A program made the translations under genes and the position numbers. DNA of 64,000 bases from Calothrix brevissima NIES-22 (GTDB lineage: Bacteria; Cyanobacteriota; Cyanobacteriia; Cyanobacteriales; Nostocaceae). Shown piece by piece: positions 9,945 to 36,913 of the stretch. The notes beneath the pieces were generated by a model. That model was not told the DNA's origin, ran no database searches, and saw nothing but the letters and a program-made list of their open reading frames with translations. The stretch covers positions 1-64,000 of the forward strand of contig NZ_AP018211.1 in assembly GCF_002367995.1 (NCBI RefSeq), given 5' to 3'. How positions within the stretch are numbered: the stretch's first letter is position 1; each line of letters starts with the position of its first letter.

Positions 9945-10829
9945 TTGAAGACTATTAAATTTAAGTTGACTCTAGGTCACAAGCTAAGAGCAATAATTGC
10001 TACAGCGTTCATGATTGCATTGCTGGTTGGATGCACGCCGACAACCCAAGCACCGCCAACACAAAGACCAGCGCCTTCATTTAAGCCAACAACGCCCAAT
10101 ACATCAAAGAGCGTACATTTGCTTTTAGGCAATCCCAGTAAGGCAACAGAGAATGTTGCAAATCCTGATAATTATTTAATGATTAAACCCCAGTATGTAC
10201 TTTCCTACAACAACACTAAAGGGACTCCCAACTGGGTAAGCTGGCAGTTGAATCAGTCATGGTTGGGAAGTGCTGACCGTCAAAACAACTTTCGCCCTGA
10301 CAGTACACTTCCAACAGGTTTTGTGCGAGTGACTCCTACTATGTATGCTGGCTCTGGGTACGATAAGGGTCATGTTGCGCCGTCGGCCGACCGCACCAAG
10401 ACGGCTGATGATAACTCTGCCACATTTTTAATGACAAATATGATGCCCCAGACACCGGACAACAACCGGAACACTTGGGGAAATTTAGAAGATTATTGTC
10501 GAGAACTGGTAAGCCAAGGCAAAGAACTTTATATTGTCGCAGGGCCTAGTGGCAATCTTGGTGAACCTCTTAAAGGTAAAGTAACAATTCCCAAATCAAC
10601 TTGGAAGGTAGTTGTGGTTTTAGATAAACCTGGTTCTGGGCTTAACGGTATTACTGCAAGCACTCGCGTTATAGCGGTGAACATACCAAATGAGCAGCAA
10701 CTAGACAATAATTGGAGAACTTATAAAGTCAGTGTTGATGAATTAGAAAAGTTGACGGGTTATGATTTTCTGTCTAATGTTTCCCCCAATATTCAAGCAA
10801 GTATTGAGAGTAAAGTTGATAATCAGTAA
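9945..10829 (+). CDS. nucA: Sugar-non-specific DNA/RNA endonuclease, lipoprotein (NucA-like)
   Basis: The 294-aa product starts at a TTG preceded by AAAAGGA. An export signal with lipobox LVGC (about residues 27-30) makes it a predicted lipoprotein. The catalytic signature reads DKGHVAPSADR, followed by MTNMMPQTPDNNRNTW, as in the beta-beta-alpha-metal nucleases (DRGHxAPS, then N..PQ...N...W). Here Lys replaces the usual Arg of DRGH. NucA of Anabaena degrades DNA and RNA outside the cytoplasm. The cognate inhibitor gene nuiA follows in convergent orientation, one base away. Function is confident; activity with the Lys variant is untested. Confidence 0.9.
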   Translation: MKTIKFKLTLGHKLRAIIATAFMIALLVGCTPTTQAPPTQRPAPSFKPTTPNTSKSVHLLLGNPSKATENVANPDNYLMIKPQYVLSYNNTKGTPNWVSWQLNQSWLGSADRQNNFRPDSTLPTGFVRVTPTMYAGSGYDKGHVAPSADRTKTADDNSATFLMTNMMPQTPDNNRNTWGNLEDYCRELVSQGKELYIVAGPSGNLGEPLKGKVTIPKSTWKVVVVLDKPGSGLNGITASTRVIAVNIPNEQQLDNNWRTYKVSVDELEKLTGYDFLSNVSPNIQASIESKVDNQ

Positions 10830-14606: not shown

Positions 14607-15623
14607 TTAAATCTTAGCTAGCCACTTTGTAAGTGCTAAATCTGTTAGTGATTCTAGAGTACTGGGAACATTGTTGTAACTATCAGAAAGTGATACTGGT
14701 ATAAATGATTTATGCGAACGACTCCAATACAAATTCCCAGGTCGTTTTTCTGTTGGTATAGCGTCCCATTCAGATTGAAGTTTCATTCGTCCAAAACCTT
14801 CAGGAACATGACCAACATGAGTAACTGTTTCACCATCTATCCATAGCCGCAACCTACCAATCGCTTCTTTTTGGCGTGATGTAGGAGTTGGCAGCCACAA
14901 AAATATGACTGGTTTATTAATCTTTCTGTAAAAGCAAAGTTCCGCTATTGGTTTAGATCTACCTCTACCATACCTAATAGTATTTCTACCTTCAATTTCT
15001 TCCTTGATGCGCCCATCAAAACTTAATATCTTATCTCTCAGATTGAGAATTGCTTGCTGTTCTTCCCCAGTACAACTGCCCAGCCAGTCTAACAGTATTT
15101 GTGGCGGTTCTGGAATATTGCTTGACGCAACGCTAATATCCAGTTCTTGGTAGGGAATCGGAATTGACCAACTTTGATTATTATCAATGTCTTGTAGCTG
15201 TAAGTGAAAATTTTGATTGATTTTGGCAACATTAACTAGCAAAAAGTTTACTATCAATTTTGTATATTTACGGTCAATCAAATTATGTCGATGAAATGAA
15301 GGTGTTGCTGCTATGAGGCGAACTGGCTGACTGTAATCGATTTGTTCTGCAAACGGTTTTTCATCTAACAAGTTGTCATAATAGCGAGTTAACTGCTGCA
15401 CAACATATCTATCTTCAGCATTTTTAAGTTCTAGAATAACTAATCGTTTTGTTTCATCCAATGCCAAAATATCGCAGACTTCGCCCTTAGCAGCATACTG
15501 TCGCTTGAGTGGAGTAAAGCCTAATAACTGCTGTAGGTTATCCCAAATAAAATCTTCAAGTGCAGCTTCCGATGCAAATTCCCACCCCTCACCTGTTTTT
15601 CGTAAAGCAGCACCAGCTAGCAT
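14607..15623 (-). CDS. NucS/DUF91-like PD-(D/E)XK endonuclease
   Basis: The N-terminal half of this 338-aa product has a nuclease core: LEDFIWDNLQQLLG (the early Glu/Asp helix), then EVCDILALDE, LVILELKNAE (the catalytic D and E-x-K) and VVQQLTRYYDNL. This is the order seen in NucS/DUF91 enzymes that cut branched or mismatched DNA. The C-terminal half carries a possible substrate-binding region (IFLWLPTPTSRQKEAIGRLRLWID; YWSRSHKSFIPVSLSD). The combination is common in cyanobacteria. The role could be repair or defence. Confidence 0.75.
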   Translation of the reverse strand: MLAGAALRKTGEGWEFASEAALEDFIWDNLQQLLGFTPLKRQYAAKGEVCDILALDETKRLVILELKNAEDRYVVQQLTRYYDNLLDEKPFAEQIDYSQPVRLIAATPSFHRHNLIDRKYTKLIVNFLLVNVAKINQNFHLQLQDIDNNQSWSIPIPYQELDISVASSNIPEPPQILLDWLGSCTGEEQQAILNLRDKILSFDGRIKEEIEGRNTIRYGRGRSKPIAELCFYRKINKPVIFLWLPTPTSRQKEAIGRLRLWIDGETVTHVGHVPEGFGRMKLQSEWDAIPTEKRPGNLYWSRSHKSFIPVSLSDSYNNVPSTLESLTDLALTKWLAKI

Positions 15624-21063: not shown

Positions 21064-21312
21064 ATGACAATAAAAAAGCCCCTAGTCATTAATCAGCCAA
21101 CTGTTGGCAAACTCATTCGTGAACTCAGGCTTTTGACTGGGCTAACGCAAGAACAGTTTGCGGCTACTTTAGGTGTTACTTATCCCACAATTAACCGTTG
21201 GGAGAATGGGCGATCTAAACCATCGCCACTAGCAATGGAGAAGATTGAAGCGCAATTACTCCAGATGGGCGATCGCGGTAAAGATTTGTTAGAGAAGTAT
21301 TTGGAAAATTAA
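21064..21312 (+). CDS. XRE-family HTH regulator 1
   Basis: The 82-aa product consists of a single XRE helix-turn-helix (VGKLIRELRLLTGLTQEQFA, ATLGVTYPTINRWENGRSKP). It lies 66 bp upstream of the HerA gene and probably regulates that operon. A paralogue, XRE 2, at 25541 shares the MTIKKPL start and most of the HTH, so the HerA-NurA block is bracketed by two similar regulators. Confidence 0.85.
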   Translation: MTIKKPLVINQPTVGKLIRELRLLTGLTQEQFAATLGVTYPTINRWENGRSKPSPLAMEKIEAQLLQMGDRGKDLLEKYLEN

Positions 21313-21378
21313 CTGATATTTTTAGAATATTTGAAATTTTTAATGCTAAAAGCAGCAATTTTTTAGAGGTAACTATCT

Positions 21379-23394
21379 ATGACTCTAAGTTTTACTAACA
21401 TAATAGCTAAAATCGCATCCGTTGATTTATTTAAAAGAAATAATAGTACAGGCAATATAGAGACTGGTATTTTTATTGGTCGTCCTTTTCACATTGATTA
21501 TGAAAAAGCATATATTTTAGTTGCTGATTCTTGGAAGTTAAAAGCTAAAGGAATTCCCCAAGGGTCTTTTTTGCTAGCTTATTACGAGAATGAAAATGAT
21601 GTTTATGAGGTATTGCTTCTCAGGGTTGTGAAACCAGCAAAGTTACCAACTGATAATGATGTTATCAGTTCAATGATTGAGTATTACAAAGATAATTTGA
21701 AAACTAGTGGTAAAGAAAGTCAGTTAGATAGCTACACAAAATATGAATTTAGCTTTTCTGGGCTAGAATGCAGAATTTTAGGAACGTTTTATAAGGATGA
21801 TAAGGAAGGTACACGTTTTGGTGCTGATGTTGAGAACTTTTATAGCGCTCATAACTATAGGGTAATTAAGCCAAATCCAGACGTATTAGAACTTATCGTC
21901 AACTTCCGTGAAGAAGGCATTACAGGTAAGCCAACTGATATCAAAATTGGCAAGGTTCGCTATAGCTCTAGCCTTCGTTTTCAAGCACAGGAAGATGATG
22001 TACCTGTATTTGTCAGCCCAAAAGACTTTCTTGGTAAACGTACTGCTCTATTTGGAATGACCCGCACAGGTAAGTCAAACACAGTTAAAAAGGTCATTCA
22101 AGCTACTGTTTCGATGAGCGATAAGGCCGCTTCTACACTGAACAGTAAGTTAAATGGTAGTGCTGTAGCGAACTTAGAACCTTTAACTGAAGATGGTTTA
22201 CCAAAGTATCCAGTCGGTCAAATCATATTTGACATCAATGGCGAGTATGCAAATGCAAATATGCAGGATGAAGGTACAGCAATATTTGAAATATACAAAG
22301 ACCGAACCATTAGGTACAGCACTCTCAATAAAGATGGCTTCAAAGTGATGAAGGTGAACTTTTACAGAGATGTAGAATCTGGATTTGAATTAATACGCAG
22401 CCATTTAGGACTAGAAACTGCCGATTATGTAAAAAGCTTCTTGTCAATTGACCTTGAAGAACCAAAGGATAAAACCGATTTTTCAGCTACTACGCGATAT
22501 GAGCGTAAAAAAGCTGCTTACTTGTGCTGCTTGTATAAAGCTGGATTTACTGTGCCTGATAATTATAAAGTCAAGTTCCAGGGACAAAAGGAACTAAATC
22601 AATTGGTAAAGGAAGATGGAAGTATAGATCCAAGCAAAGGTATATCGCTTGAAGAAGCGAGCAATTGGTTTACTACCATTTGGGAAAACTACAATCATGA
22701 GTTATTTACTAATTATAAAAAAAGTAAAGGACGTGAGTGGGCTGATGAAGATTTAAAAGCTCTGCTTATTTTTTTAACACGGAAAACTCAACCCGGCAGC
22801 AAAGCAACTATTAATGGATATATCAAATTACGGGATATTGCTATTCTTCATACAGAAACAGTTGGTAAACCCTTTGAAGCAGAAATTATTGAGGAACTTC
22901 GCAAGGGTCAGATTATCATCGTAGATTTATCGCAAGGCGACCCAGAGATTCAACGCTTATATTCCGAGCGCATTTGCCGCCAAATTTTTGCAGATGCAAT
23001 GAATCGCTTCATTCAAAATATACCTAACAACTTCATTCAGTTTTACTTTGAAGAAGCCCATAATCTTTTTCCAAAGAAAGATGATAAGGACTTAAGCCAG
23101 GTCTATAACCGGATTGCCAAGGAAGGTGCAAAGCTCAATCTTGGTTTAATTTATGCTACTCAGGAAGTCAGTTCAATAAGTTCCAATATTCTGAAAAATA
23201 CTCAAAATTGGTTTATTGCCCATTTAAATAACGAGGACGAAACAAAAGAAATTAAAAAGTATTATGATTTTGGAGACTTTACCGAGTCTCTAGTTAGGTT
23301 TAGTGCAGATAGTGATAAAGGTTTTGTACGCATGAAAACCTACTCCAATGCCTTCGTAGTTCCTACTCAAATTGACCGTTTCTCTAAAATTTAA
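21379..23394 (+). CDS. herA: HerA-like hexameric ATPase (DUF87)
   Basis: The 671-aa product has an N-terminal HAS-barrel-like region (about 15-120), then a RecA/FtsK-type core: Walker A FGMTRTGKSNTVKK at about 225-238, Walker B FIQFYFEEAHNLFP at about 552-565, and LNLGLIYATQEVSSIS, a sensor region of the HerA class. HerA pumps DNA with the NurA nuclease during end resection in archaea, and HerA homologues serve in bacterial defence with various nucleases. AGAGG precedes the ATG. The NurA-like gene follows after 15 bp, so they form an operon. Confidence 0.88.
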   Translation: MTLSFTNIIAKIASVDLFKRNNSTGNIETGIFIGRPFHIDYEKAYILVADSWKLKAKGIPQGSFLLAYYENENDVYEVLLLRVVKPAKLPTDNDVISSMIEYYKDNLKTSGKESQLDSYTKYEFSFSGLECRILGTFYKDDKEGTRFGADVENFYSAHNYRVIKPNPDVLELIVNFREEGITGKPTDIKIGKVRYSSSLRFQAQEDDVPVFVSPKDFLGKRTALFGMTRTGKSNTVKKVIQATVSMSDKAASTLNSKLNGSAVANLEPLTEDGLPKYPVGQIIFDINGEYANANMQDEGTAIFEIYKDRTIRYSTLNKDGFKVMKVNFYRDVESGFELIRSHLGLETADYVKSFLSIDLEEPKDKTDFSATTRYERKKAAYLCCLYKAGFTVPDNYKVKFQGQKELNQLVKEDGSIDPSKGISLEEASNWFTTIWENYNHELFTNYKKSKGREWADEDLKALLIFLTRKTQPGSKATINGYIKLRDIAILHTETVGKPFEAEIIEELRKGQIIIVDLSQGDPEIQRLYSERICRQIFADAMNRFIQNIPNNFIQFYFEEAHNLFPKKDDKDLSQVYNRIAKEGAKLNLGLIYATQEVSSISSNILKNTQNWFIAHLNNEDETKEIKKYYDFGDFTESLVRFSADSDKGFVRMKTYSNAFVVPTQIDRFSKI

Positions 23395-23409
23395 CAAAGC
23401 AAGTAGTTT

Positions 23410-24744
23410 ATGGGATATACAAGCAAGCGTGGACGACGGCCTAATGAGTATGCCAGTAAGTCTGCACACAGTCACATAATTAATGATGAATCATTACAGG
23501 AGTTTCTTAGTCAATGTAATCTCCCTAAATCAGCAGATGAAGTAACTATTTCCGACTGCCTCAACTTTTCCTATGAACCTGTAATAAAAAATCCAATCCG
23601 CAATATTATCGCTATTGATGGTGGATACAGTGAAGTATCTGTACAAACTGGTTTCCCATCCTCAACTGTCTGCTTTTTTCAAATAGGGGCGCTCATCTTT
23701 AGTATTGATGACCTTGATGGACTTGGTAAACAGCCTTTCATAGACCCAGAGGATATGGCGAAGTTAAAGCAAATTCAACGTTTAAAACTAACTCTGCCTG
23801 TTCGCAATATCCAATTTAAAAGTGAAAGTACGCTGATAGACTCAGTACGTAGAACTATTCATAACTTTTTCTGTCAGAAAGTAGACAATGAAGAATTGAT
23901 TGCAACACTACGATGGTTTATCTTTCAGGAATATGATGTAAGTTTACCAACTTGGAATTTAGCAAGTTGTCCAGTTTGCGGAAATGCAGGTATTCCCCTT
24001 AATCTGCGAGAAATGACAAAGGACTATACCTTTTCTTGTAATCATTGCAGCACTGAGATTTTTCTAACAGATGTATTTCGGCTACATGAAGCTATTGATG
24101 AAGAATTAGGTGCTGGTGGTATTTTAGGATATTTGATGACTACGTTAGAGCAGATTGTCCTAGTTCACCTTATTCGACTCGTTCTTAAAATGAAGCCTGC
24201 TTTATTGGAAGAAATCTTGTTTGTTAAGGATGGCCCGCTTGCCTTTTTCGGGCAAACAGCAAATATGTACAAGCCTATGCGATCGCTTGTTAACTTTCTG
24301 TTTAAACATCACAACTTATACCTGGCTGGATTAGAAAAAAGTGGAGCCTTTGTAGAACACGCCGATGAAATATCTGAGAAGCTTGCAAACGGAACTGTAC
24401 TAATTCTAAATAATGATTACATTTACAAATACATTCTCCCTGGTAAGGCTGACCCAAGTAGACCTTATGGCTCTACAACTTATTACAGCAATAAGTTTAT
24501 TTTTAAAACATTAGCAGGTGGGATGTATATTGTTTCCCTACCAACTCCAAAGAATATGACGAATCCCAAAGAAGCAGATTTTCAAAATTTGGGTGCAATT
24601 TTAACCAACATTGAAAAGCTTAAGTGCGATATGTACGATAGTTCTCTCATTCCTATTGCCTTAGCAAACAAACTTGTCTCTTTAGCTGACCATCCTAGCT
24701 CTAGAATTCTCCAAAAGTTCGCTAAAGGTGCAATTCTTAGTTGA
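23410..24744 (+). CDS. nurA: NurA-domain nuclease with zinc-ribbon insertion
   Basis: The 444-aa product shows NurA motifs in order: IIAIDGGYSEV (about 67-77; first metal-binding Asp), ILFVKDGPL (about 270-278; second Asp) and the C-terminal AGLEKSGAF followed by LAGGMYIVSLP. An inserted zinc ribbon has CPVCG near 186 and CNHC near 210. NurA is a 5'-3' nuclease that works with HerA. It starts 15 bp after HerA, and a secreted-protein gene follows 24 bp on. Pair function is inferred from the families; the insertion is an unusual feature. Confidence 0.8.
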   Translation: MGYTSKRGRRPNEYASKSAHSHIINDESLQEFLSQCNLPKSADEVTISDCLNFSYEPVIKNPIRNIIAIDGGYSEVSVQTGFPSSTVCFFQIGALIFSIDDLDGLGKQPFIDPEDMAKLKQIQRLKLTLPVRNIQFKSESTLIDSVRRTIHNFFCQKVDNEELIATLRWFIFQEYDVSLPTWNLASCPVCGNAGIPLNLREMTKDYTFSCNHCSTEIFLTDVFRLHEAIDEELGAGGILGYLMTTLEQIVLVHLIRLVLKMKPALLEEILFVKDGPLAFFGQTANMYKPMRSLVNFLFKHHNLYLAGLEKSGAFVEHADEISEKLANGTVLILNNDYIYKYILPGKADPSRPYGSTTYYSNKFIFKTLAGGMYIVSLPTPKNMTNPKEADFQNLGAILTNIEKLKCDMYDSSLIPIALANKLVSLADHPSSRILQKFAKGAILS

Positions 24745-24768
24745 AAGATTATTAAAAATAGGAAAAAT

Positions 24769-25227
24769 ATGAAAAACATTTTATCTACTAGTAGAGTATT
24801 ATTAATCGGTGCTGTATTTGCTTTGAGTATACAAAACTATGCAATTGCTCAGGACACATCAAAGCTTGTGGATTCAATCAAATCTGTTGCACAAGTTAAA
24901 AAAGAGCTAAAAGAGACATTTGAAAATTTAGACCAATGTGGTGCAGGGTCTTGTTTTAATTCTACAAGCACTTATATTTGTGAATTAGTTGGTGCCTTGG
25001 ATGTGAAGGTAAATGGAAGAATTGTTGGACAAATGTCTGGTGGAAAAAGTGAACTTGCCATTTCAGCATCTGATTTAAAACTAATGAAAAAAATATTCAG
25101 CCAGTGCAAACCAACTAATTATCAATACTGGAATTGGGATTATGTACTCCATGTCAGCTATTTGCCCAGCGATAGTGTAGATCGAGAGGTTCGCGCTGCT
25201 TTAGGGGTGCGTAGCAGACGCAGATAA
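24769..25227 (+). CDS. Secreted cysteine-containing protein in the HerA-NurA operon
   Basis: This 152-aa protein has a signal peptide (hydrophobic residues 9-22, cleavage near AIAQ-DT). The mature part has cysteines (QCGAGSC, ICELV, QCKP) and an acidic and lysine-rich early helix (LVDSIKSVAQVKKELKETF). AGGA precedes the ATG and the gap to NurA is 24 bp, so it is probably co-transcribed. A periplasmic protein is an odd companion for a DNA-translocase and nuclease pair. No family is recognised. Confidence 0.65.
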   Translation: MKNILSTSRVLLIGAVFALSIQNYAIAQDTSKLVDSIKSVAQVKKELKETFENLDQCGAGSCFNSTSTYICELVGALDVKVNGRIVGQMSGGKSELAISASDLKLMKKIFSQCKPTNYQYWNWDYVLHVSYLPSDSVDREVRAALGVRSRRR

Positions 25228-25540: not shown

Positions 25541-25762
25541 ATGACTATCAAAAAACCCTTGGCTATCAAGCAGCCAGAGGTGGGGCGAATCATTCGTGAT
25601 TCGCGGCTTGCCTTCGGGCTAACACAAGAACAGTTTGCAAATACTCTTGGTGTGACTTATTCCACAATTAACCGTTGGGAAAATGGACACACTAAGCCAT
25701 CACCACTGGCGATGGAGAAGATTGAGAGAATGTTGCAGGAAATAGGCGAACAGTTTAATTAG
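25541..25762 (+). CDS. XRE-family HTH regulator 2
   Basis: This 73-aa protein is one XRE HTH (VGRIIRDSRLAFGLTQEQFA, NTLGVTYSTINRWENGHTKP). It is paralogous to the regulator at 21064, with the same MTIKKPL opening and a shared upstream box. It stands alone after the HerA-NurA-secreted-protein operon. Duplicate regulators around one block suggest an old duplication or an immunity-type arrangement. Confidence 0.8.
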   Translation: MTIKKPLAIKQPEVGRIIRDSRLAFGLTQEQFANTLGVTYSTINRWENGHTKPSPLAMEKIERMLQEIGEQFN

Positions 25763-26024
25763 TTCTACGAAATCAACCAATTAGTTTTAGGGAGTAAGCC
25801 ATGCTTGCTCAGTTTTGATATGGCGACGCTTTGAGGATGCGATCGCTTTACTTTAGCTGGCAATTCAAAATTAATGAATGAGTGGCTTTGTTCTAGTTTT
25901 GGCAGCAACCGGATGCGATCGCAGAAATTATTGAATCCTTAGCAACTAAAACGTTACACAACAGTAATTGAGAAGTTAGCGCAGTTTATCTAGTTCATGT
26001 TTTTCAGATCAGGTGAGGCATCTA

Positions 26025-26543
26025 ATGAACGGTAATACAAACATGAGAACTACTCAGCAAGTCATAGAAATCACAGGCGCTCCTGCCCAAGTATGGGGGA
26101 ATGTTTTAGTTCCCGCAAAAGGAACAATTACTGTCAAAGTTACAGGTGACACCCTTCAAGGAACAACAAAAACTGGGTTAGAAAAGAGAGAGACTTGGAT
26201 ACGCATTCAAAATATTGATTCAGCAGAAACATTAGAAGCCCCTATTTATGCATTATTGGGTTTTGGAGTATTTCTAGCTTTTTCAGCTTTGGGTGCATTC
26301 AGTAACTCTTCTGGACTAGGTTTAATTTTACTTGTTGTAGCAGTAGCCTTAATTGTCTATGCAATAACTAATAAACGGCGGTATTTAGCAATCTACAGCC
26401 ATCGCAATGCAATTGTTGTTTTCATGAAGAAGTCCCCAGAAATTTATCAGCAGTTTGCTATGAATGTATTGGCATTATCTCGGAAACTCAACACACCCAT
26501 CAACACACAAACAAAACAAGCTCAAACCCAAATTCAAGCTTAG
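26025..26543 (+). CDS. Two-TM membrane protein, unknown
   Basis: ATG 26025 is preferred, with AGGTGAGG upstream; the product is 172 aa. A soluble beta-rich N-terminus (VIEITGAPAQVWGNVLV; TITVKVTGDTLQGT; WIRIQNIDSAETLEAP) is followed by two hydrophobic helices (about 68-90 and 95-112) and a basic C-terminal part resembling the second half of a PH-like fold (RYLAIYSHRNAIVVFMKKS). It lies 220 bp upstream of the NERD operon, on the same strand. The role is unknown. Confidence 0.6.
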   Translation: MNGNTNMRTTQQVIEITGAPAQVWGNVLVPAKGTITVKVTGDTLQGTTKTGLEKRETWIRIQNIDSAETLEAPIYALLGFGVFLAFSALGAFSNSSGLGLILLVVAVALIVYAITNKRRYLAIYSHRNAIVVFMKKSPEIYQQFAMNVLALSRKLNTPINTQTKQAQTQIQA

Positions 26544-26763: not shown

Positions 26764-28704
26764 ATGGTCAACAGCACAGATACCCAAGCAACTCAAACAT
26801 CCAATAGAGGAGGAATATTAAAAGTATTAGCTAGACTAGCAACAACAGGAATAATTAGTTTTGGGATTGGTGGAGCAGTAACTTTTGACCGTTATAACAA
26901 CTATTGGAATCAAACAATATTTCGTGTTCAAACTGTCGATTTTAATATCTTATCTCATACTTTACCAACGAAACTTTCTTATGCAATTGCTAAAAACCAA
27001 CCTGAAGAAGTACAGCGTACATTAGATAGTAATTATAACTTATTTGGATTAATTATTACAGATTCTAGTGGACAAAAAATTATTGCTCATTCAGGTAAAA
27101 ATTCTGGACGTTCCCTATCTTGGAAAGCAGCACTAGATCCGCAACAATTACAAAATCATCCTTATGATGTGTTGCTTGATCCTCCACCTCTATTTGCACA
27201 GTGGACTTATAGTAAACCCCAAGCTACTGAACGCAGTGCTACAAGTTTAACTAATCGAGGTCGTGTTATAGGCAGGGTTTACTATGTGAGGGGTGTTAGA
27301 CCAACATTTCAAGAGGATATTGCAACATTTTTAAGTAATCCTTTCTCTGGAAGTAGTAGGATTCAAACTTACGCAACTACTCTAGCAGCGTGTTTTGGTG
27401 GGACTTTTCTTATCTGGAGTATTTTGGAGTTTATTCTTTATAAAAGACGAGTTGAAATAAGGATAGCTAGGGAAAAAGAAGAGACACTAAATAACAATAA
27501 CAGAATTTTACAATTTCAATTAACTGAGAGAATTCATGAACTTCAATTACTACAAAATCAGAGAGAAGATGAACGTAACGAATTCAATAAAGAAGCCGAT
27601 AAGCTCCATAGCCTAAATAACAGACTAAAAAACGAAATTTTTAACCTCAGGGATTTAATTAAGAATTTATCAACAAATACAGATTCAACAAATTTACAAA
27701 TTGAATTAAAAAATACTAGATTACAATCACAAGAAAATTTAGACAAGAAAAAACAATATGAGCAAGATATTAAAGAATTAAATAAAAAATTACAAATCAT
27801 TCAAAATAAACAATTAGAAACTCTTAAAAAAAATGAACAAAAAGAAAATGAATTACAAGAAATTCAACAACAAATACAGGAGATAGAAACTTCTCGCTCT
27901 TTAGCTGAATCTCAATTAGAAGAATTACGAAGCCATGAAGAAAATTACAAAAAAATTGTTGCTGAGTTGGAAGAACAGCTAAATCAAAAAAACTTTAAAG
28001 AAGAAGAACTTCAAAAGCAATTAGAGAATCTACAAAATTCATTATCAGAATATCAAGAACGAGAACAACTATTAGAAAAACTTGCTGAACAGGCAAAAGC
28101 TGAATCTGAGGCTTTGGGTAAAGAGATTGCACGTTATAAAGAGGACACAGGTAAACATCCTTTAAATGATTTTGAGGTGTCCATTTTGAATTATCTACAA
28201 CAGAAATTCTCAGATAAGAAAGTTTTTGTACAATTTGATGTAGGAAATGGTAGGCAAGGAAGTATGTCTACAGATTTTATAATTGCAATGAATAACTGCT
28301 GTATTGTTATAGAAGCTAAATCTTACACAGGAAAAATTAAAGCTATTGGTTATCCACGTAATACTGGATGGATTTGTATAACCAATACTAAAATTGAAAA
28401 TATTAATGCTTGTTGGGGCAAAAATCCATATGAACAAATCTGGACATATAGTGTTTCTTTATATGGGCGAATTAAAATATCAAATCGAAATAAGTTACCT
28501 GTATTTGGTATTGTTGTATTTCCAAAAGATGCAGTCGTTGATAATAATATTCAATCTAATATAAGTAATTTTTACAGAGTGACAACCCTAGATAATTTAA
28601 GCACTGCTATTCAGGAATTAGAAAATCAAGCTAGGTTTCAAAATAAAACTCGATTAACCTATGAGCAAATTTTGGAAAAACTTACAGGTATATCGGATCA
28701 ATAA
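26764..28704 (+). CDS. Membrane-anchored coiled-coil protein with C-terminal NERD-like nuclease domain
   Basis: The 646-aa product has TM1 at about 20-40, a periplasmic region of about 160 residues resembling a Cache-type sensor (VQTVDFNILSHTLPTKLSYA; LFGLIITDSSGQKII), and TM2 at about 202-226. A long coiled coil (about 234-450) and then a nuclease domain follow: NDFEVSILNYLQQKF, STDFIIAMNNCCIVIEAKSY with the D and E-x-K of a NERD/PD-(D/E)XK core. The layout implies signalling from the periplasm to a cytoplasmic nuclease. GGAG precedes the start. It heads a tight operon with the two genes downstream (31 and 44 bp gaps). Confidence 0.7.
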   Translation: MVNSTDTQATQTSNRGGILKVLARLATTGIISFGIGGAVTFDRYNNYWNQTIFRVQTVDFNILSHTLPTKLSYAIAKNQPEEVQRTLDSNYNLFGLIITDSSGQKIIAHSGKNSGRSLSWKAALDPQQLQNHPYDVLLDPPPLFAQWTYSKPQATERSATSLTNRGRVIGRVYYVRGVRPTFQEDIATFLSNPFSGSSRIQTYATTLAACFGGTFLIWSILEFILYKRRVEIRIAREKEETLNNNNRILQFQLTERIHELQLLQNQREDERNEFNKEADKLHSLNNRLKNEIFNLRDLIKNLSTNTDSTNLQIELKNTRLQSQENLDKKKQYEQDIKELNKKLQIIQNKQLETLKKNEQKENELQEIQQQIQEIETSRSLAESQLEELRSHEENYKKIVAELEEQLNQKNFKEEELQKQLENLQNSLSEYQEREQLLEKLAEQAKAESEALGKEIARYKEDTGKHPLNDFEVSILNYLQQKFSDKKVFVQFDVGNGRQGSMSTDFIIAMNNCCIVIEAKSYTGKIKAIGYPRNTGWICITNTKIENINACWGKNPYEQIWTYSVSLYGRIKISNRNKLPVFGIVVFPKDAVVDNNIQSNISNFYRVTTLDNLSTAIQELENQARFQNKTRLTYEQILEKLTGISDQ

Positions 28705-28735
28705 CCCGCTTAAGTATCAACATTTGGTATCTATT

Positions 28736-30457
28736 ATGTTTAATTCTCATAATCATCAGTATTTTATAAAGTTTTTAGTATTTATTGGAATTTTGGGTTT
28801 ATCAGGTTGTAATCCTAGCAAACCAACAAAATCCCTAACACCCACAATTTCTCCAACGTCTTCTAGTAGTGGGATTAAAGAACAGAAGTTAAATGCAAGC
28901 ACTTTAACCATAGGTATTTTAAGCAAACCAAGTTACTACCAAGAATTAACTACTTACCTACGTGAGCAATTTGGTAATAAAGTCCAGATAATTCTTGATG
29001 GTGATGACTCAATTTCTTATGAAGAAGCCAGAAAAAGAATGATAAATAAAGAATGGGATATTGCTTTTACTTTATCACCAATTCTTTCTGTAGCTGCTAA
29101 AAATAACGATTATCACTTTGCAGCTAAAATGTTTCCAAATAACCCTCCATATTATCAAGCTACTTTATTTACAAAATCCAATAGTAGTATTCAATCTATT
29201 AATGATTTAAAACATACAAATACTATTGCTATGGGAGATTTCAATTCAGCATCTAGTTTCTATGTACCTGCCTATGACTTATTTGGTAAAAGTTTAAGGG
29301 TAGATATGGGGCATCGAGGAAAGGATATTAAAGACTTAGTTAAAACTGGAAAAGCTGATATAGGTGCTGCGGCTTACGAAGCTGTTGCAAATGACAAAGA
29401 TTTAAAAATAATTCATTTAAGTAAGCAAATTCCTGGTGCTAATGTTTATTTATCACCTAAGCTTTCTGAATCTGACCGCCAGATAATTACAAAAGTTTTG
29501 CTAAATGCACCAGAGAATATTAGAAAGCAAGCTAATTATGGTGGTGGTGAAGAACATGATTATTCACAATTAATAAAAATATCTCAAAGAACTGAAGAGA
29601 TATTAAAATGTGCAGATTTTAAACAACAAACAGTTAATTTTTACTGCACTGGTAGCTCCGAAAAACAAAAACCTAGCAATTCTAATAACACATCAGAAAT
29701 ATTAGGGCGAATTAATGGATGGACTCGCCAAAATAATGAAATTGAAACTTTCAAGTTGTCAGGAAAAGATAATCAAGTTTACCAGATAACTATACCTCGA
29801 AAAATCCTTTATCAAGTTCCTGGTGCTTCTAGCCCAATTGCTTTACAAGGTAAAGAAGTCAAAATCATCAATGTTGCACCTCAAAAAGCGCAAGCAGGAA
29901 TATTTGAACTAAAACTTACACAGCCTAATCAATTAAATGTATTAGAAGATACACAAAAGTCTTCAATTCAGTCAAATTATCAAGTCAAGCAAGTCGATGA
30001 CGGCGATACAATCACCGTCACTGATATATCTAATCAAAAAATCAGAGTGAGGTTTGCTTGTATAGATACCGCAGAAGTACCTCATTCGGATACAGAAAAA
30101 AACAGTGATAACCCTGCTGATAAGAATCAGTTTCTATGGGGCAATAAAGCTAAAGAGCGACTGGAATCTATCATCAAAATTGGCGATCGGGTAAAACTAA
30201 ATATCGTAGATACTGACCGCTATGGGCGCAAAGTTGCTGAGGTACGCTTAGAGGATGGTACTTTCATACAACAGATATTAGTGAAAGAAGGGTTAGCGAT
30301 GGTTTATCGCCAATACCTAAAAAACTGTGCTAGTGCTGCTCTTGTTGAAAAAGCTGAAGCTGAAGCTAAACAACAACGTTTAAATATTTGGGCAGATTCA
30401 CAATTTACTGCACCTTGGGATTGGCGATCGCAGAAAAAATCTTCAAAAAAATCCTGA
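28736..30457 (+). CDS. Lipoprotein fusing a PhnD-like binding domain to a thermonuclease (SNase) domain
   Basis: The product is 573 aa from ATG 28736; an earlier in-frame start overlaps the upstream gene. Lipobox LSGC at residues 22-25. Residues about 55-285 resemble the PhnD/phosphonate-type periplasmic binding fold (LTIGILSKPSYYQEL; AAYEAVANDKDLKII). A middle OB-like region (about 330-400) and an SNase domain (about 420-570) follow with intact catalytic elements: VDDGDTITV, RVRFACIDTAE (Arg, Asp, Thr, Glu) and DTDRYGRKVAEV (second Arg). A Ca-dependent extracytoplasmic nuclease tethered to a ligand-binding domain is expected; the fusion is uncommon to my knowledge. Confidence 0.8.
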   Translation: MFNSHNHQYFIKFLVFIGILGLSGCNPSKPTKSLTPTISPTSSSSGIKEQKLNASTLTIGILSKPSYYQELTTYLREQFGNKVQIILDGDDSISYEEARKRMINKEWDIAFTLSPILSVAAKNNDYHFAAKMFPNNPPYYQATLFTKSNSSIQSINDLKHTNTIAMGDFNSASSFYVPAYDLFGKSLRVDMGHRGKDIKDLVKTGKADIGAAAYEAVANDKDLKIIHLSKQIPGANVYLSPKLSESDRQIITKVLLNAPENIRKQANYGGGEEHDYSQLIKISQRTEEILKCADFKQQTVNFYCTGSSEKQKPSNSNNTSEILGRINGWTRQNNEIETFKLSGKDNQVYQITIPRKILYQVPGASSPIALQGKEVKIINVAPQKAQAGIFELKLTQPNQLNVLEDTQKSSIQSNYQVKQVDDGDTITVTDISNQKIRVRFACIDTAEVPHSDTEKNSDNPADKNQFLWGNKAKERLESIIKIGDRVKLNIVDTDRYGRKVAEVRLEDGTFIQQILVKEGLAMVYRQYLKNCASAALVEKAEAEAKQQRLNIWADSQFTAPWDWRSQKKSSKKS

Positions 30458-30501
30458 TACTTGCACAAAGAAACCCAATTATTATAATCACCAAAATAGA
30501 A

Positions 30502-31452
30502 ATGTCTATATTACGCTCTAAATTCTTTGCTGTTCCTGCTTTATTACCAGTGCTACTCCTGTCACAATTGCAGCAAGATACACAAGGGGAACAAGGGGGA
30601 ATTAGTAACCAACAATTAAACGAGCAATCAATATTGGCAGTTAATTGGGTGCAACAATCTGGAGAATACAGGGCTTTAACTTATCAAGCATTCAATCTAG
30701 CTCAACTGAATTTTGATAAAGCTAAGTCAAAAAGAATTGCCCACCCTGCCATTATCGTTGATATTGATGAGACAGTGCTTGATAATAGCCCTTATCAAGC
30801 TGGTTTAGTGGATAGTAATAATATTTTTCAACCTGCAACTTGGAATCAATGGATTAAAGAGGAGAAAGCAAAAGCTATACCAGGAGCAGTTGAATTCATT
30901 AATTATGTAAATAAAAAAGGTGGTAAGGTATTTTTCATTTCCAATCGAGATGAAAAGAGTGTTAAAACTTCTAAAAATAATGATTTAAAAATAGCTACTA
31001 TTAATAATTTAAAAGCAGTGGGATTTACAGGAGTTGATGAACAGACAGTATTGTTAAAAGGAGAGTTTACCAAAAAGATTGACGGCCAAGAAAATACCTC
31101 TAAACAATGGCGAGTAGACGCTGTTAAAAATGGCAGTGCTGATGGAAAAAGATATACAGTAATTGCCTTGATTGGTGATAACCTCAATGACTTTGATGAA
31201 ACAGTAGGCAAGAGTAATCAACAACGCCGCACTAGTGTAGACAATTATCGTAATTCTTACGGTATGTTTAATATCACAAAAGGAATAGTTAAACCTGCTT
31301 ATATTGCAATACCTAATCCTATGTATGGCAACTGGGAAACAGGAATGTATAACCCACAAGCATTTAAAAAACAAAGTCCTTTTGAAATGACCCCAACACA
31401 AAAAAACCAACAACGCAAGGAATCTTTAACTCGTTGGTTGCCAAAGGAATAA
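30502..31452 (+). CDS. Acid phosphatase of the e(P4)/class C HAD family
   Basis: ATG 30502 gives 316 aa with an N-terminal signal sequence (FFAVPALLPVLLLSQ); the lipobox cysteine normal for the family is missing. HAD motifs are present: IIVDIDETVLDNSPYQ (about 87-101), VFFISNRDE (about 143-151) and LIGDNLNDFDE (about 222-232). Such enzymes remove phosphate from nucleotides in the periplasm. Following a nuclease lipoprotein by 44 bp, it may finish degradation of oligonucleotides to nucleosides and phosphate. Confidence 0.85.
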   Translation: MSILRSKFFAVPALLPVLLLSQLQQDTQGEQGGISNQQLNEQSILAVNWVQQSGEYRALTYQAFNLAQLNFDKAKSKRIAHPAIIVDIDETVLDNSPYQAGLVDSNNIFQPATWNQWIKEEKAKAIPGAVEFINYVNKKGGKVFFISNRDEKSVKTSKNNDLKIATINNLKAVGFTGVDEQTVLLKGEFTKKIDGQENTSKQWRVDAVKNGSADGKRYTVIALIGDNLNDFDETVGKSNQQRRTSVDNYRNSYGMFNITKGIVKPAYIAIPNPMYGNWETGMYNPQAFKKQSPFEMTPTQKNQQRKESLTRWLPKE

Positions 31453-31684: not shown

Positions 31685-32152
31685 ATGAGAAAGAATTTTT
31701 TGTTTACATTAATATTTAGTTTGGCTGTCGTTTTATCTTTATTAACTAGCAATGCAGTTGCTTCCTTGAATCAGCAAGAGTTACCATCAGCCCTCATAGC
31801 TGCTATTCGTCAAGATTTATTACAGTATCGGGAAAGTTTTACATCTGATAAAAGTGAAAGTGGTTATGCCCGTCATAAAGTTTTTTTGTTGATCTCAATA
31901 ACGATCGTGTCAAAGAAGCAATTGTATATCCAATCGGTGGAATAAAAATTTGCAGCAGCCGTAGCTGTGGAATTTTTATCTATACGAAGGTAGGTAATAA
32001 TTATAGAAAAATCTCTGGTGAACGAAATGGTCTATCTTCTGCTGTTTCTGGATCGCGCAATGAACCGTCAATCGGGGTTTTGACTACGAACCACCAAGGA
32101 TGGCGTGACATAGCAACTCGATTTTTTGACTATGAAACTAGAACAGAGAAAT
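31685..32152 (+). pseudogene. Secreted protein gene, frameshifted at T7 and ended by an IS
   Basis: A signal peptide (to about VASLNQ) and about 65 residues read well up to GYARHKVF. There, a run of seven Ts (31881-31887) breaks the frame. With an eighth T the frame continues as FVDLNNDRVKEAIVYPIGG, then ICSSRSCGIFIYTKVGNNYR and onward to the IS1380 edge, a normal secreted-domain look. So the gene carries a 1-base homopolymer deletion and its 3' end is bounded by the IS. No family is known to me. Confidence 0.6.
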
Positions 32153-33099
32153 CCCGGATTTCTCACAAGTGAGAAATCCGGGTTAAGTACTGGTTCAATT
32201 TTTCTCGAGTATTCTTGGGATGCACGATACTTTATTGACTTAGTTGCTTGGATAAGACGATTATTTTCACTCAGTCCAAATACATAATCAATTCCAGTTT
32301 GAGATTCACACCATGCCATAATCTCTTCTCTAGAATATGCACTATCTCCTCGAATAATAATTTTGACATTCTGCCATCGCAGGCGGATTATTTTTATGAC
32401 TCGTTGTAATTCTTCTAATCCCCATGCTGCTGGGTCTAAGTTGGATGCACGAAGTTTTGCTGCTATGATTTTTTTACCACAGAAAATATACAATGGAGCG
32501 TAACAATATCCCTTATAATAAGGGTTAAAAAATGTTTCTTCTTGATTACCATGTATTAAATTATCCGTAACATCTAAATCCAAAATTATCTGCCGTGGTG
32601 GCTTTTGATAAGATTCTAAAAATAGCTCAACTAAAAGTCTTTCTATCGCTGCTCCATCATATTCAATCCGGTGATATCGACTATTTTCTCTTGAAGATAC
32701 ATCTTCTGGACAATGTTCCAGACGATTTAAGGTACTTTTTCCGGCTAAAGTAATCAATTTTTGATCTGAGTTAATTACTTTTCCCACTGCGAGCGCAAAT
32801 ATTGGATCGTGACGCAGGGTTTCATGGTCATTTATATCTTCATAGCCCATGATTAAGCCATATATTCTTTGTGCGATTAAGCTCTGTACTGGATGTGAAA
32901 TTTTCTTTGGGTCTCGGTAGTCTTTGAAACATGCTGCGAATCTTGATGTTATGTCTCTTTTTTTATCTAATTCCGCAATTAATATTAACCCTGCATCCGA
33001 TGTTACAGGCTCACCCTTGAAATTAACTATAACTGGACATGACTTTACTTGTCCAAATACGAACTGTTCCGTTATACAATGATTTTTATTTGGGGTCAT
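32153..33099 (-). pseudogene. IS1380-family transposase, C-terminally truncated
   Basis: The frame from ATG 33099 reads VTSDAGLILIAELDKKRDI, ISHPVQSLIAQRIYGLIMGYEDINDH, QIILDLDVTDNLIHG, IIIRGDSAYSREEIMAWCES and IDYVFGLSENNRL, all typical of IS1380 transposases. Family members are usually above 400 aa. Here homology ends about residue 315 at the 30-bp terminal-repeat palindrome, and the open frame then runs into flanking DNA to 32068. The last catalytic acidic region is probably lost, so it is inactive. Confidence 0.85.
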
Positions 33100-33183: not shown

Positions 33184-34138
33184 TAAAGTACGACACTTTC
33201 ATGGCTGGTGCATGGATTTACTCAAAAAATACAACATCCCCAGACCTGATTCTAAAGAGTACCAAGGAGAAGCTTACACAAATGAACTGGTTCAAAGAGT
33301 AATTACAGCTGTAGATGCTAAGAAAATACCCGCCGGAACTTACGATGCAGTGATGCTTGATGAAGGTCACGACTTTAAACTGGAGTGGTTAAAACTGGTT
33401 GCACAGATGGTCAATCCAGAAACAAACTCACTGCTCGTCTTGTACGACGATGCCCAAAACCTTTACGGTGAAAAACGCACTCAAAAATTTAGCTTTAAGA
33501 GTGTGGGCATCCAGGCACAGGGACGCACCACCATTTTAAAACTCAATTACCGCAATACAGAACAGGTATTAAGGGTAGCCTATGAGTTTGCCAAGGAAGT
33601 AATGCAACCCACCACCGGGGATGATGACCAAGTGGTATTGGTAGAACCTGCTAGTGCAGGACGGCAGGGGCCAGTACCAGATTTAATTAAACTCCCCAGT
33701 TTTAAACATGAGGTAGATTATTTAGCCGAACGGGTGCAACAGTTACACGAGCGTGGTACAGCTTGGAATGAAATAGCAATTTTTTATCGCTCTAAGTTTA
33801 TGGGCGATCGCATTTACAATCACTTCCAACAAGCCCAAATACCAATCGAATGGGTAAATGCCAATAGTGACAGCCGCAACTATCACCCAGCCGAATTAAG
33901 TATCAAACTCATGACTATGCATTCATCTAAAGGGCTAGAGTTCCCAGTTGTGTTGATTCCCGGTATTGGTTATATGCCTTACCAGTACGGACACGGCACA
34001 TCTGAAGAAGAAGCGCGATTACTTTATGTGGGAATGACAAGGGCGATTGAGCAGTTGATTATGAGTTGCGATCGCTCATCAGAATTTACCAGTCGTTTGG
34101 AGATAGCATTAGGTAAAGTGGTAGCTAAAGTAGTTTAA
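33184..34138 (+). pseudogene. UvrD/Rep-like helicase, 5' end lost at the IS1380 junction
   Basis: The remaining 317 residues begin KVRHFHGWCMDLLKKYNIPR right at the IS end. They include the Walker B-like AVMLDEGHDF, LNYRNTEQVLRVAYEFA, and the C-terminal motifs LMTMHSSKGLEFPVVLIPGIG and EEARLLYVGMTRA. The Walker A segment and N-terminal domain are absent, so it cannot be a working helicase. Its last 55 bases recur as relics at 34942, 46042 and 48541. Confidence 0.85.
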
Positions 34139-35155: not shown

Positions 35156-36913
35156 CTACACTGTAAAAGAGTCGCCAATCACACTAGAGAACCTAAAAGC
35201 GGTAGCAGGATCGCTGGCATCACCAATAAACTCGAAGTTCTTGACGAACATATTGGTAGATCCAAGACTTATTGTGTAGAAGCCATCGCCATTTGTGCTA
35301 CCTGAGACTCTGTAGGTTCCAGTGCCGAAAAGCAGCGTATCTCTGTTATTTCCACCATCAAAGCGTCCGGTTCCAAATCCTTTGATGATATCTTTACCAT
35401 CTCCGAGCCTGGTAGTGCCATTGCCACCAAAGCCACCAGTGAGAGCATCGACGATATCGTTACCAGTGCCAGTATTGATGGTGCCGTTATTGAAGATACC
35501 GATGTACCCATCGCCTAAGATGGAGTCGTTTCCGTTGCCGCTATTGATGATGCCATCGTTGTAGATGCCAAAAGATCCGCGAGAAGACCCAGCGATGGAG
35601 TCATTACCATCCCCCGTATCGATTTTGGGCGTTTCATTGTTGAAAATACTGTTGAAGATGCCTATTTGGTTGCCAGTCCCGATGATAGAGTCATCGCCAG
35701 CCCCCGTATCGATTTTGGCAGTTCCAAAGTTGTTGATGCCGATGGATCTATCATCTTTCAAGCCAAAACCATTAATAGAATCATTACCATTCCCCGTATT
35801 AATCGTGCCACTACCAGAAATGCCAATGGAGCCTCCAAAGCCATTAATAGAGTCGTTACCATTTCCAGTATTAATTGTGCCTGTGGTGTTCTCGATGCCA
35901 CCACCAGATCCCTCCCCGAAGATATAGTCATCCCCTGCTCCTGTATCAATTTTGGACATTTCAAAGTTGAGGATGCCTAATTGTTGGTTGCCAAAGCCAG
36001 TGATTTTGTCGTTACCAGCACCAGTATCGATAGTACCTTGATTGAAGATGCCGGTGGTGCTGCCAGTGCCAGTGATTTTGTCGTTACCAGTGCCAGTATT
36101 GATGGTGCCGCCGCTTTGATTGACAATGCCGAAGTCGCCGCCAGTGGCAGTGATTTTGTCGTTACCATCGCCGGTTTTTATAATGCCGTAGTTATCTATG
36201 CCGTTAGTACCAGTGGCAGTGATGGTGTCGCTACCATCGCCAGTATTGATGGTGCCGCCTTGTGCGTTGCGGATGCCGATATTGTTAGTGCTAGTGGCAG
36301 TGATTGTGTCGTTGCCATTACCTGTATTGATTGTTCCGCCTGCACCCTGCTCTATGCCTTCGCCCTCATTGAAGCCACCATTGCCAGTACCACTAGCAGT
36401 GATTGTGTCGTTGCCATCGCCAGTGTTGATGGTGGCGTTGAAGCTGCCAAAGCCGTTAAAGAGTCCGATTTGACCAGTGGCAGTGATTATGTCGCTGCCA
36501 GTACCAGTATCAATAGTGCCTTTTGTGTTGTAAATACCAAAATCTCCTTTGCCTATAACCTGGTCGTTACCATTACCCGTATTAATGGTGTGGAAGTTGT
36601 AAATGCCGACAGTGGCACCAGTGGCAGTGATTATGTCATTACCATCATCGGTATTAATGGTGCTGTTATCAGTGTTTATGAGGGCGGAGCCGTTAGCAGA
36701 AGTCGCGGCGATTGTATCATTGCCAGAGCGAGTATTTATGATGCCATTGTTGGTGATGCCGATGCCGAAGGAAGTATTATCGCCAGTGCCAGTGATTTTG
36801 TCATTACCACCAAGAGTATTGGCGGTGCCAGTATTAACTATTGCCTCAGTCCCTGATACCGGGACGATATCAGCCTTGTTGGTAAATCTTAGGGTGGAAA
36901 GATTTATAGCCAT
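35156..36913 (-). CDS. RTX/hemolysin-type repeat protein
   Basis: The 585-aa product is built almost wholly of repeats of about 20-25 residues, of the type TINTGNGNDTITATG and TIDTGAGNDKITGFG, a beta-roll-like Ca-binding pattern. The C-terminus changes to a non-repeat segment (RVSGSTNGDGFYTISLGSTN; VKNFEFIGDASDP), which could be the export signal of a type I secretion substrate. No signal peptide and no type I transporter nearby. The repeats create long false frames on the other strand. Confidence 0.8.
   Translation of the reverse strand: MAINLSTLRFTNKADIVPVSGTEAIVNTGTANTLGGNDKITGTGDNTSFGIGITNNGIINTRSGNDTIAATSANGSALINTDNSTINTDDGNDIITATGATVGIYNFHTINTGNGNDQVIGKGDFGIYNTKGTIDTGTGSDIITATGQIGLFNGFGSFNATINTGDGNDTITASGTGNGGFNEGEGIEQGAGGTINTGNGNDTITATSTNNIGIRNAQGGTINTGDGSDTITATGTNGIDNYGIIKTGDGNDKITATGGDFGIVNQSGGTINTGTGNDKITGTGSTTGIFNQGTIDTGAGNDKITGFGNQQLGILNFEMSKIDTGAGDDYIFGEGSGGGIENTTGTINTGNGNDSINGFGGSIGISGSGTINTGNGNDSINGFGLKDDRSIGINNFGTAKIDTGAGDDSIIGTGNQIGIFNSIFNNETPKIDTGDGNDSIAGSSRGSFGIYNDGIINSGNGNDSILGDGYIGIFNNGTINTGTGNDIVDALTGGFGGNGTTRLGDGKDIIKGFGTGRFDGGNNRDTLLFGTGTYRVSGSTNGDGFYTISLGSTNMFVKNFEFIGDASDPATAFRFSSVIGDSFTV

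Follow-up and report, generated by a model that had tools for sequence, protein, structure and literature searches.

A three-gene operon on the forward strand of contig NZ_AP018211.1 (190 kb) of Calothrix brevissima NIES-22, whose genome comprises 9.26 Mb on 9 contigs, is described here as a binding-protein/sensor pair with a nuclease output, which likely guards the cell envelope against foreign nucleic acid (estimated probability about 0.5). Within the window, the whole stretch of 64,000 nucleotides that was analysed, the genes lie at 26764-28704, 28736-30457 and 30502-31452 with gaps of 31 bp and 44 bp, and they encode a membrane sensor followed by a coiled coil and a NERD domain (gene 1, 646 aa), a lipoprotein with a PhnD domain, a C-terminal beta domain and an SNase domain (gene 2, 573 aa) and a class C (e(P4)-type) acid phosphatase with an N-terminal signal-like segment (gene 3, 316 aa). 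The sensing parts are kept in relatives while the cutting domains are swapped, and several copies lie near phage-defence genes; therefore, the set is likely an envelope alarm against foreign DNA or RNA. As read from sequences and structure models, the domains and their order are clear, the active-site motifs are intact, the binding domain has a PhnD/ArrX-type fold with an oxyanion pocket, and the outputs are swapped among relatives. A first-pass annotation of this DNA had described the tight one-strand cluster of a membrane NERD protein, a PhnD-SNase lipoprotein and an acid phosphatase; coordinates and domains were re-derived and agree, and Pfam and AlphaFold2 support the anatomy. Its anatomy and its conserved gene order stand, but it had overlooked an XRE regulator, the modularity of both sensing parts and their likely pairing.

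The start of gene 2 was taken at the ATG at 28736, while the mechanical open reading frame (ORF) begins at 28661. A signal sequence and an LSGC lipobox were read by eye at its N-terminus; the hydropathy scan of gene 2 flagged no segment at the thresholds used, the signal included. Pfam assigned Phosphonate-bd (E 1.1e-20) and SNase (E 5e-20). The PhnD-type binding domain (residues 51-300, 28886-29635) has the bilobed PhnD fold, and its closest solved folds include ArrX and AioX; the structure matches also comprise XAC2383-XAC2382. The oxyanion pocket of PhnD/AioX type, with two Tyr, Ser-x-Ser, His and Asp, is present as Y95, Y140, S171, S173, H193 and D208, of which the first four are conserved in 63/63 proteins, H193 in 51/63 and D208 in 59/63; the Tyr, Ser and His equivalences to the AioX residues listed in PMC5908839 come from alignments and that of Asp is inferred. 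ArrX and AioX are described there as binding proteins that signal and do not transport. No ABC (ATP-binding cassette) transporter ATPase or permease genes were found among the scanned genes next to gene 2, and the identity as part of a phosphonate ABC transporter was rejected on this ground. The PhnD domain is followed by a small beta domain (residues 318-405, 29687-29950), which also occurs C-terminally of a kinase without PhnD, and by the SNase (thermonuclease) domain (29975-30403), in which both the fold and the aligned catalytic Arg-Glu-Arg are present. Gene 2 matched PADLOC-DB 2.0.0 over the SNase part only (C3a212).

The AlphaFold2 model of gene 1 has a mean predicted local distance difference test (pLDDT) score of 85.8 and consists of an N-terminal helix, a small alpha/beta domain (strands 95-175), a membrane helix from residue 198, a coiled coil to 460 and the NERD part at 469-641. 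Hydropathy places the second membrane segment at 207-225, within the helix starting at 198; for the first helix (about 15-45) the scan gave no hydrophobic call, and two crossings of the membrane by gene 1 are therefore no more than likely. From the model and the relatives, the sensor part was delimited to residues 20-226 (26821-27441), including the helix, a predicted extracytoplasmic alpha/beta domain and the second membrane segment. The order of secondary-structure elements suggests a PAS/Cache-like sensor domain; Foldseek and VIA-align gave no fold match for it, their rows being mostly coiled-coil proteins. The coiled coil spans residues 230-460 (~230 residues, 27451-28143), and to this part alone the LmuB and JetC models of PADLOC-DB 2.0.0 match. 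The NERD domain (residues 469-641, 28168-28686) was recognised by Pfam (PF08378, residues 470-587, E 5.8e-10, 40.1 bits against a gathering cut-off of 22.1) and carries a D...EAK motif, which is found in 58/64 of the best sensor proteins, gene 1 of the window included. The PD-(D/E)XK nuclease fold proposed in the first-pass annotation is backed by the Pfam match and the motif, but not by a clean fold match: the NERD part models as alpha/beta without such a match in Foldseek or VIA-align, and a comparison with the sequences of solved structures gave nothing meaningful (best E 0.06). A phage origin was rejected, as gene 1 has no match among 50,697 phage records.

Relatives were collected for gene 2 (the best 120 of 166 and the best 120 of 199) and for the gene-1 sensor (the best 120 of 304), and both sensing parts proved to be modular, with outputs that, judged from these sequences, have been exchanged repeatedly. 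The PhnD domain occurs with SNase, a Swt1-type HEPN domain, DUF4145, NERD, a Ser/Thr kinase or no partner. Where the effector precedes PhnD, a hydrophobic segment lies within 90 residues before PhnD in 39/42 fusions and after PhnD in 0, which would place the effector inside and PhnD outside the membrane. The sensor of gene 1 ends in NERD in 61 proteins, in HicA in 44, in a PF24161-type end in 5, in a histidine kinase in 2 and in a DUF2325-like end in 1, and nothing was detected in 7. Additionally, a 1019-aa protein (L119, 4677-7736, minus strand) joins CHAT and nSTAND1 domains to a C-terminal sensor of the gene-1 type. On a tree of 100 PhnD domains, to which 176 had been reduced at 80% identity, 37 architecture changes are required where 8 would be the minimum, and the well-supported branches force at least 8 changes of NERD, 7 of SNase, 5 of the kinase and 4 of HEPN; the sensor tree of 59 domains needs 13 architecture changes against a least number of 5. 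Both trees are quick ones with Shimodaira-Hasegawa-like approximate likelihood ratio test (SH-aLRT) support only, and truncated metagenome proteins may inflate the class of PhnD domains standing alone, not the positive classes.

Whether the two sensing parts form a pair was examined across genomes. In a sample of 388 genomes of the order, 50 carry the PhnD family (E 1e-25) and 49 the gene-1 sensor; 13 carry both, where about 6 would be expected under independence with kinship ignored. In 7 of these 13 genomes the two are neighbours, namely in the window and in G231, G314, G368, G376, G116 and G236, the latter in decayed form. The 54 PhnD places of the sample, two of which share one locus, gave 53 loci, and the sensor lies within 4 kb of PhnD at 7/53 of them (window included) and at 0 in the far parts (368 kb against 374 kb examined). 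In G116 (L103) a kinase-transmembrane (TM)-PhnD gene, a sensor-histidine kinase, a response regulator, an acid phosphatase and an HTH_3 gene follow one another at distances of 0 to 10 bp. By its domain content, the Nostoc commune plasmid protein P0296 (L197) unites parts of the window operon in a single chain, NERD-TM-PhnD-SNase, and is followed by an e(P4) phosphatase. A PhnD binding protein working with the gene-1 sensor towards a nuclease output is considered a rather probable mechanism. As a separate observation, the N-terminal part of a gene-1 sensor is fused to a PhnD domain in L057 (9746-11068), apparently by deletion.

Such a pair resembles AioX-AioS-AioR and ArrX-ArrS, in which, according to PMC5908839, a signalling binding protein of the PhnD fold has a membrane sensor as its partner, and the AioXSR/ArrXSR-like relatives L103, L060 and L061 retain the histidine kinase and the response regulator. 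In contrast to these systems, NERD replaces the histidine kinase in the window operon, the binding protein bears its own SNase domain and an acid phosphatase is a partner. An assignment of the operon to AioXSR/ArrXSR was rejected because of the NERD output of gene 1, and no adjacent gene matched a response regulator. The arsenic sensors among the closest folds, the many kinase fusions (24/176 PhnD proteins) and the versions with histidine kinase and response regulator (L103, L060) would also fit a family of cyanobacterial proteins for general oxyanion signalling (phosphate, arsenate or phosphonate), in which nucleases are one of many outputs and which has no dedicated role in defence or nutrition. 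This is judged distinctly unlikely, as the outputs of the gene-1 sensor are mostly nucleases or RNase toxins and the nuclease and phosphatase partners would be left unexplained.

The order of the genes was followed in a scan keyed on the PhnD domain alone with one genome per species, which gave 42 loci; several of these stretches end at contig ends, so that neighbour counts are lower bounds. The order NERD sensor, PhnD-SNase and phosphatase is found at 6/42 loci (L031-L036) in 5 organisms, Nostoc foliaceum, Nostoc KVJ20, Westiellopsis prolifica (twice), Nostoc NMS2 and Anabaena azotica, and the three genes are also present on the conjugative plasmid pC052_A of Nostoc sp. C052. This recurrence shows that the order is not due to chance; the first-pass annotation had proposed to look for the same order in other genomes and had named a lack of synteny as grounds for giving up its reading, which was not observed. 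The sensor gene adjoins PhnD at 10/42 loci (L031-L036, L037, L042, L045 and L046), and in two further loci (L060, L061) a sensor-histidine kinase with a response regulator lies near PhnD. Among the 42 stretches a phosphatase was counted in 9, a UvrD-type helicase in 8 and a small HTH_3 gene in 8. Nostoc commune SO-36 and Cylindrospermopsis curvispora likewise bear gene-2 relatives on plasmids, and plasmid carriage thus extends to at least three named strains.

Gene 3 was taken to start at the ATG at 30502, while the mechanical ORF begins at 30388. It was assigned to Acid_phosphat_B by Pfam (E 5.4e-40) and matches the solved structures 3pct, 3et4 and 3ocy at E about 1e-47 (3pct 1.2e-47); VDIDET and GDNLNDF align with 3pct, and both the HAD IIIB match and the DxD motif are present. 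No match was found for gene 3 in PADLOC-DB 2.0.0. The family is rare, with 10 places in 9/388 genomes, and a phosphatase lies near PhnD at 5/53 loci and at 0 in far parts (among them a more distant one in G329, a genome outside the nine). At 2 of these 5 loci an exonuclease-endonuclease-phosphatase fold replaces SNase, as a separate gene in L149 and fused to the acid phosphatase domain in a single protein in L183 (6594-8234, minus strand). On plasmid pC052_A an S1/P1 nuclease gene lies about 2 kb upstream of the three genes on the opposite strand. Since the phosphatase is kept while the nuclease is replaced, these loci suggest that the conversion of nucleic acid to nucleotides and phosphate outside the membrane belongs to the function.

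The same enzymes could serve scavenging of extracellular nucleic acid and phosphate with feedback, where SNase and the phosphatase would free phosphate from DNA outside the cell, PhnD would report it and NERD would do housekeeping. The combination of a nuclease predicted to be exported with an e(P4)-type phosphatase and a phosphonate-type binding protein suits phosphorus acquisition. The phosphatase is found with two unrelated nuclease folds, and a solved relative is annotated as an NADP phosphatase. This function, which the first-pass annotation had offered beside defence, has lost ground and is now regarded as unlikely: the swapping of NERD, HicA, HEPN and kinase and a regulator common to restriction and viperin loci would be left unexplained, no ABC transporter gene stands beside gene 2, and the distribution is patchy and in part plasmid-borne. 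Moreover, the search for PHO boxes put forward there as a check gave nothing convincing when a consensus was run over 300 bp of upstream sequence of gene 1, both in the window and in nine relatives; the best candidate in the window has 2 mismatches and is equalled in 9.5% of random stretches, and candidates in the relatives have 3-4 mismatches in 8/9 and 2 mismatches in L034 (11%). Alternatively, periplasmic phosphate, low or high, could be read by PhnD and the sensor and set off nucleases in the cytoplasm through which the cell reuses nucleic acid of its own, such as the extra chromosomes present in polyploid cyanobacteria. Synechocystis and other polyploid prokaryotes are reported (PMC10536925) to live on genome copies as a phosphate store, and the PhnD-type pocket is conserved. 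Such a phosphate-status switch is considered very unlikely in view of the patchy occurrence of the PhnD family, its carriage on plasmids, the defence-type genes nearby and the unconvincing PHO boxes.

An XRE/HTH_3 regulator gene (25541-25753, forward strand) lies upstream of the operon, with 73-76% identity by tblastn to the HTH genes upstream of L034 and L066, the latter recognised as HTH_3 by Pfam. A second copy of the same family (21064-21309, forward strand) was identified by sequence similarity upstream of genes for a HerA-like ATPase (21379-23394) and a NurA-like protein (23410-24744, just below the Pfam cut-off), both on the forward strand, and the order regulator, HerA and NurA recurs in L208; in the window, the row 21064-25227 continues with a small protein with a signal-like start. 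The host genome contains only one more close copy, on contig C4 before a type IIG enzyme (L142). In other genomes, 20 better regulator matches were taken (L199-L218), those adjoining PhnD being left out, and the genes behind 16 of them (L205, L207 and L215 not among them) were scanned against PADLOC at 1e-20. Matches were obtained at 11/16 loci, or for 14/20 scanned genes. Type IIG restriction enzymes account for 5 loci and UvrD-type helicases for 2 (one weak), and the other matches are to viperin with VakA, Druantia E, an AriA/NsnB-type ATPase and a PD-T4-6-type kinase. The regulator family occurs near PhnD at 5/53 loci and far from it at 2. A conserved stretch of about 100 bp lies upstream of gene 1 in seven related operons and is not claimed as an operator. 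Between the regulator and gene 1 lies a gene for a small membrane protein (26013-26543, forward strand; DUF6232-like, weak), with homologues near the operon in L031 and L034; in L206 (825-2979) this family stands between the regulator and VakA-viperin genes and may thus be a shared defence accessory. Ten large genes close to the operon in six relatives were compared with PADLOC, and 7 of them match, including type IIG restriction, with Cas3 and Cas8 in Westiellopsis.

The regulator family, the defence-type neighbours, the effector swapping and the unconvincing PHO boxes favour, without proving, a role in defence, which is considered rather probable. Under this reading, foreign nucleic acid would release a phosphate-type ligand, and its binding by the PhnD protein would turn on the NERD domain of the membrane sensor in the cytoplasm. 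The lipoprotein would contact the gene-1 sensor as AioX is proposed to act on AioS, and the SNase domain and the phosphatase, by breaking nucleic acid down to nucleotides and phosphate on the outer side of the membrane, would produce the ligand or remove it. The signal would travel down the coiled coil and activate NERD, or in relatives HicA, HEPN, kinase or histidine kinase, leading to cleavage of DNA or RNA or to a growth stop. Phage or other foreign nucleic acid would be the trigger, and the XRE regulator would control expression of the operon. In its widest form, which is put forward tentatively and at somewhat less than an even chance, the proposal is a novel class of cyanobacterial immune systems that senses foreign nucleic acid before or during envelope crossing: an exported nuclease and nucleotidase make a phosphate-type signal, a PhnD-type receptor reads it, and a two-helix sensor relays it via a coiled coil to effectors that destroy DNA or RNA and can be exchanged, all under the control of an XRE regulator common to restriction, viperin and Druantia loci.

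Several observations weigh against a dedicated envelope defence. A gene-1-type sensor within 4 kb is lacking at 46/53 PhnD loci and such a regulator at 48/53 (some of these loci being cut by contig ends), and the sensor-HicA genes examined have no PhnD neighbour, so that the two parts often work apart. PhnD-alone and kinase-PhnD genes of Planktothrix and Limnospira lack a nuclease or phosphatase neighbour. In 5/9 phosphatase genomes (G231, G083, G064, G195 and G308) no PhnD was found in the stretch examined, although it may lie beyond a contig end. With members in 95/388 genomes, the regulator family is a broad one, and 5/16 of its scanned loci gave no PADLOC match. None of the three genes has a full-length match to a system model of PADLOC-DB 2.0.0, and a known PADLOC system was rejected accordingly. 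Partial or generic matches account for three of the 7 neighbours, both of those in L031 and the RecD type in L036. The defence genes beside the operon, whose enrichment the first-pass annotation had also proposed to check, have to be set against a control: 40 genes from distant parts of the examined loci, and so from the flanks of comparable loci, matched 59 models at 1e-20, counted per model and not per gene, and the models listed include transposon-like Cas12f models (up to 3 genes), Csx1 (3), and PglZ, a DrmD-type helicase and JetC (1 each). The background is therefore not small, and defence neighbours alone are weak evidence.

Coiled-coil HicA proteins are known as the Class 14 'SMC-HicA' fusions, some with NERD, for which abortive infection was suggested (Gerdes 2024, PMC10865869). 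The sensor-HicA relatives share the long coiled coil and the C-terminal HicA, and by this likeness of description they may be part of that class; they differ in their N-terminal membrane sensor, whereas PMC10865869 describes SMC fusions and its text contains 'transmembrane' 0 times. Pfam detected HicA and a weak DUF4164 match in the sensor-HicA protein P0254, and no SMC ATPase domain in it or in gene 1. If the sensor-HicA proteins do belong to the class, a membrane sensor would form their N-terminus in place of an SMC ATPase. Searches of openly licensed PubMed Central papers yielded neither binding-protein/sensor pairs driving nucleases or RNase toxins nor this domain combination. In envelope-sensing defence systems such as Zorya, a membrane part is proposed to detect the invader and unleash a nuclease in the cytoplasm; unlike Zorya, the window operon would sense via a binding protein, and no Zorya model was among the PADLOC matches of the three genes. 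XAC2383-XAC2382 of Xanthomonas citri, a comparable pair of binding protein and diguanylate cyclase, differs in that the output in the window operon is a nuclease and not a cyclase. Binding-protein/sensor pairs are known to drive histidine kinases. If the proposal is true, bacteria sense small molecules on the outer side of the membrane and arm nucleases within the cell in response, and envelope sensing of phage DNA before its expression becomes a testable question. The XRE/HTH_3 family, standing before restriction, viperin, Druantia and HerA-NurA loci, could mark new defence loci in cyanobacteria, and together with the modular sensors it offers handles for further uncharacterised ones.

Downstream of the operon, a DDE_Tnp_1_4 transposase gene (32068-33099, minus strand) separates it from the C-terminal remnant of a NERD-UvrD helicase (33185-34138, forward strand), which corresponds to residues 306-613 of the L037 relative; the remaining part of the helicase has no match anywhere in the window. 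Relatives of this helicase (PADLOC candidate C3a187) adjoin PhnD in L037, L039, L041 and L057, and one follows the phosphatase in L143. In L153, L167, L170, L182, L183 and L194 a gene for a UvrD-family helicase runs into or directly up to the beginning of the TM-PhnD gene, and the PhnD proteins of L153, L167, L183 and L194 have an N-terminal region of about 100 residues with no domain assigned. In Planktothrix and related loci (L048, L051-L056, L151-L165) some PhnD-alone or kinase-TM-PhnD genes adjoin DUF2499/DUF3593 or WD40-kinase genes. No RNA elements at Rfam gathering scores and no tRNAs by ARAGORN were found in the window. Elsewhere in the window, genes were found for a DNA/RNA non-specific endonuclease (9945-10829, PF01223, E 7.4e-60), 16 kb from the operon, a NucS_C-domain protein (14610-15623), a 585-aa protein built of GNGNDTITATG-type repeats (35156-36913, minus strand) and a pentapeptide-repeat protein with a TRADD-like N-terminal domain (49624-51057, minus strand).

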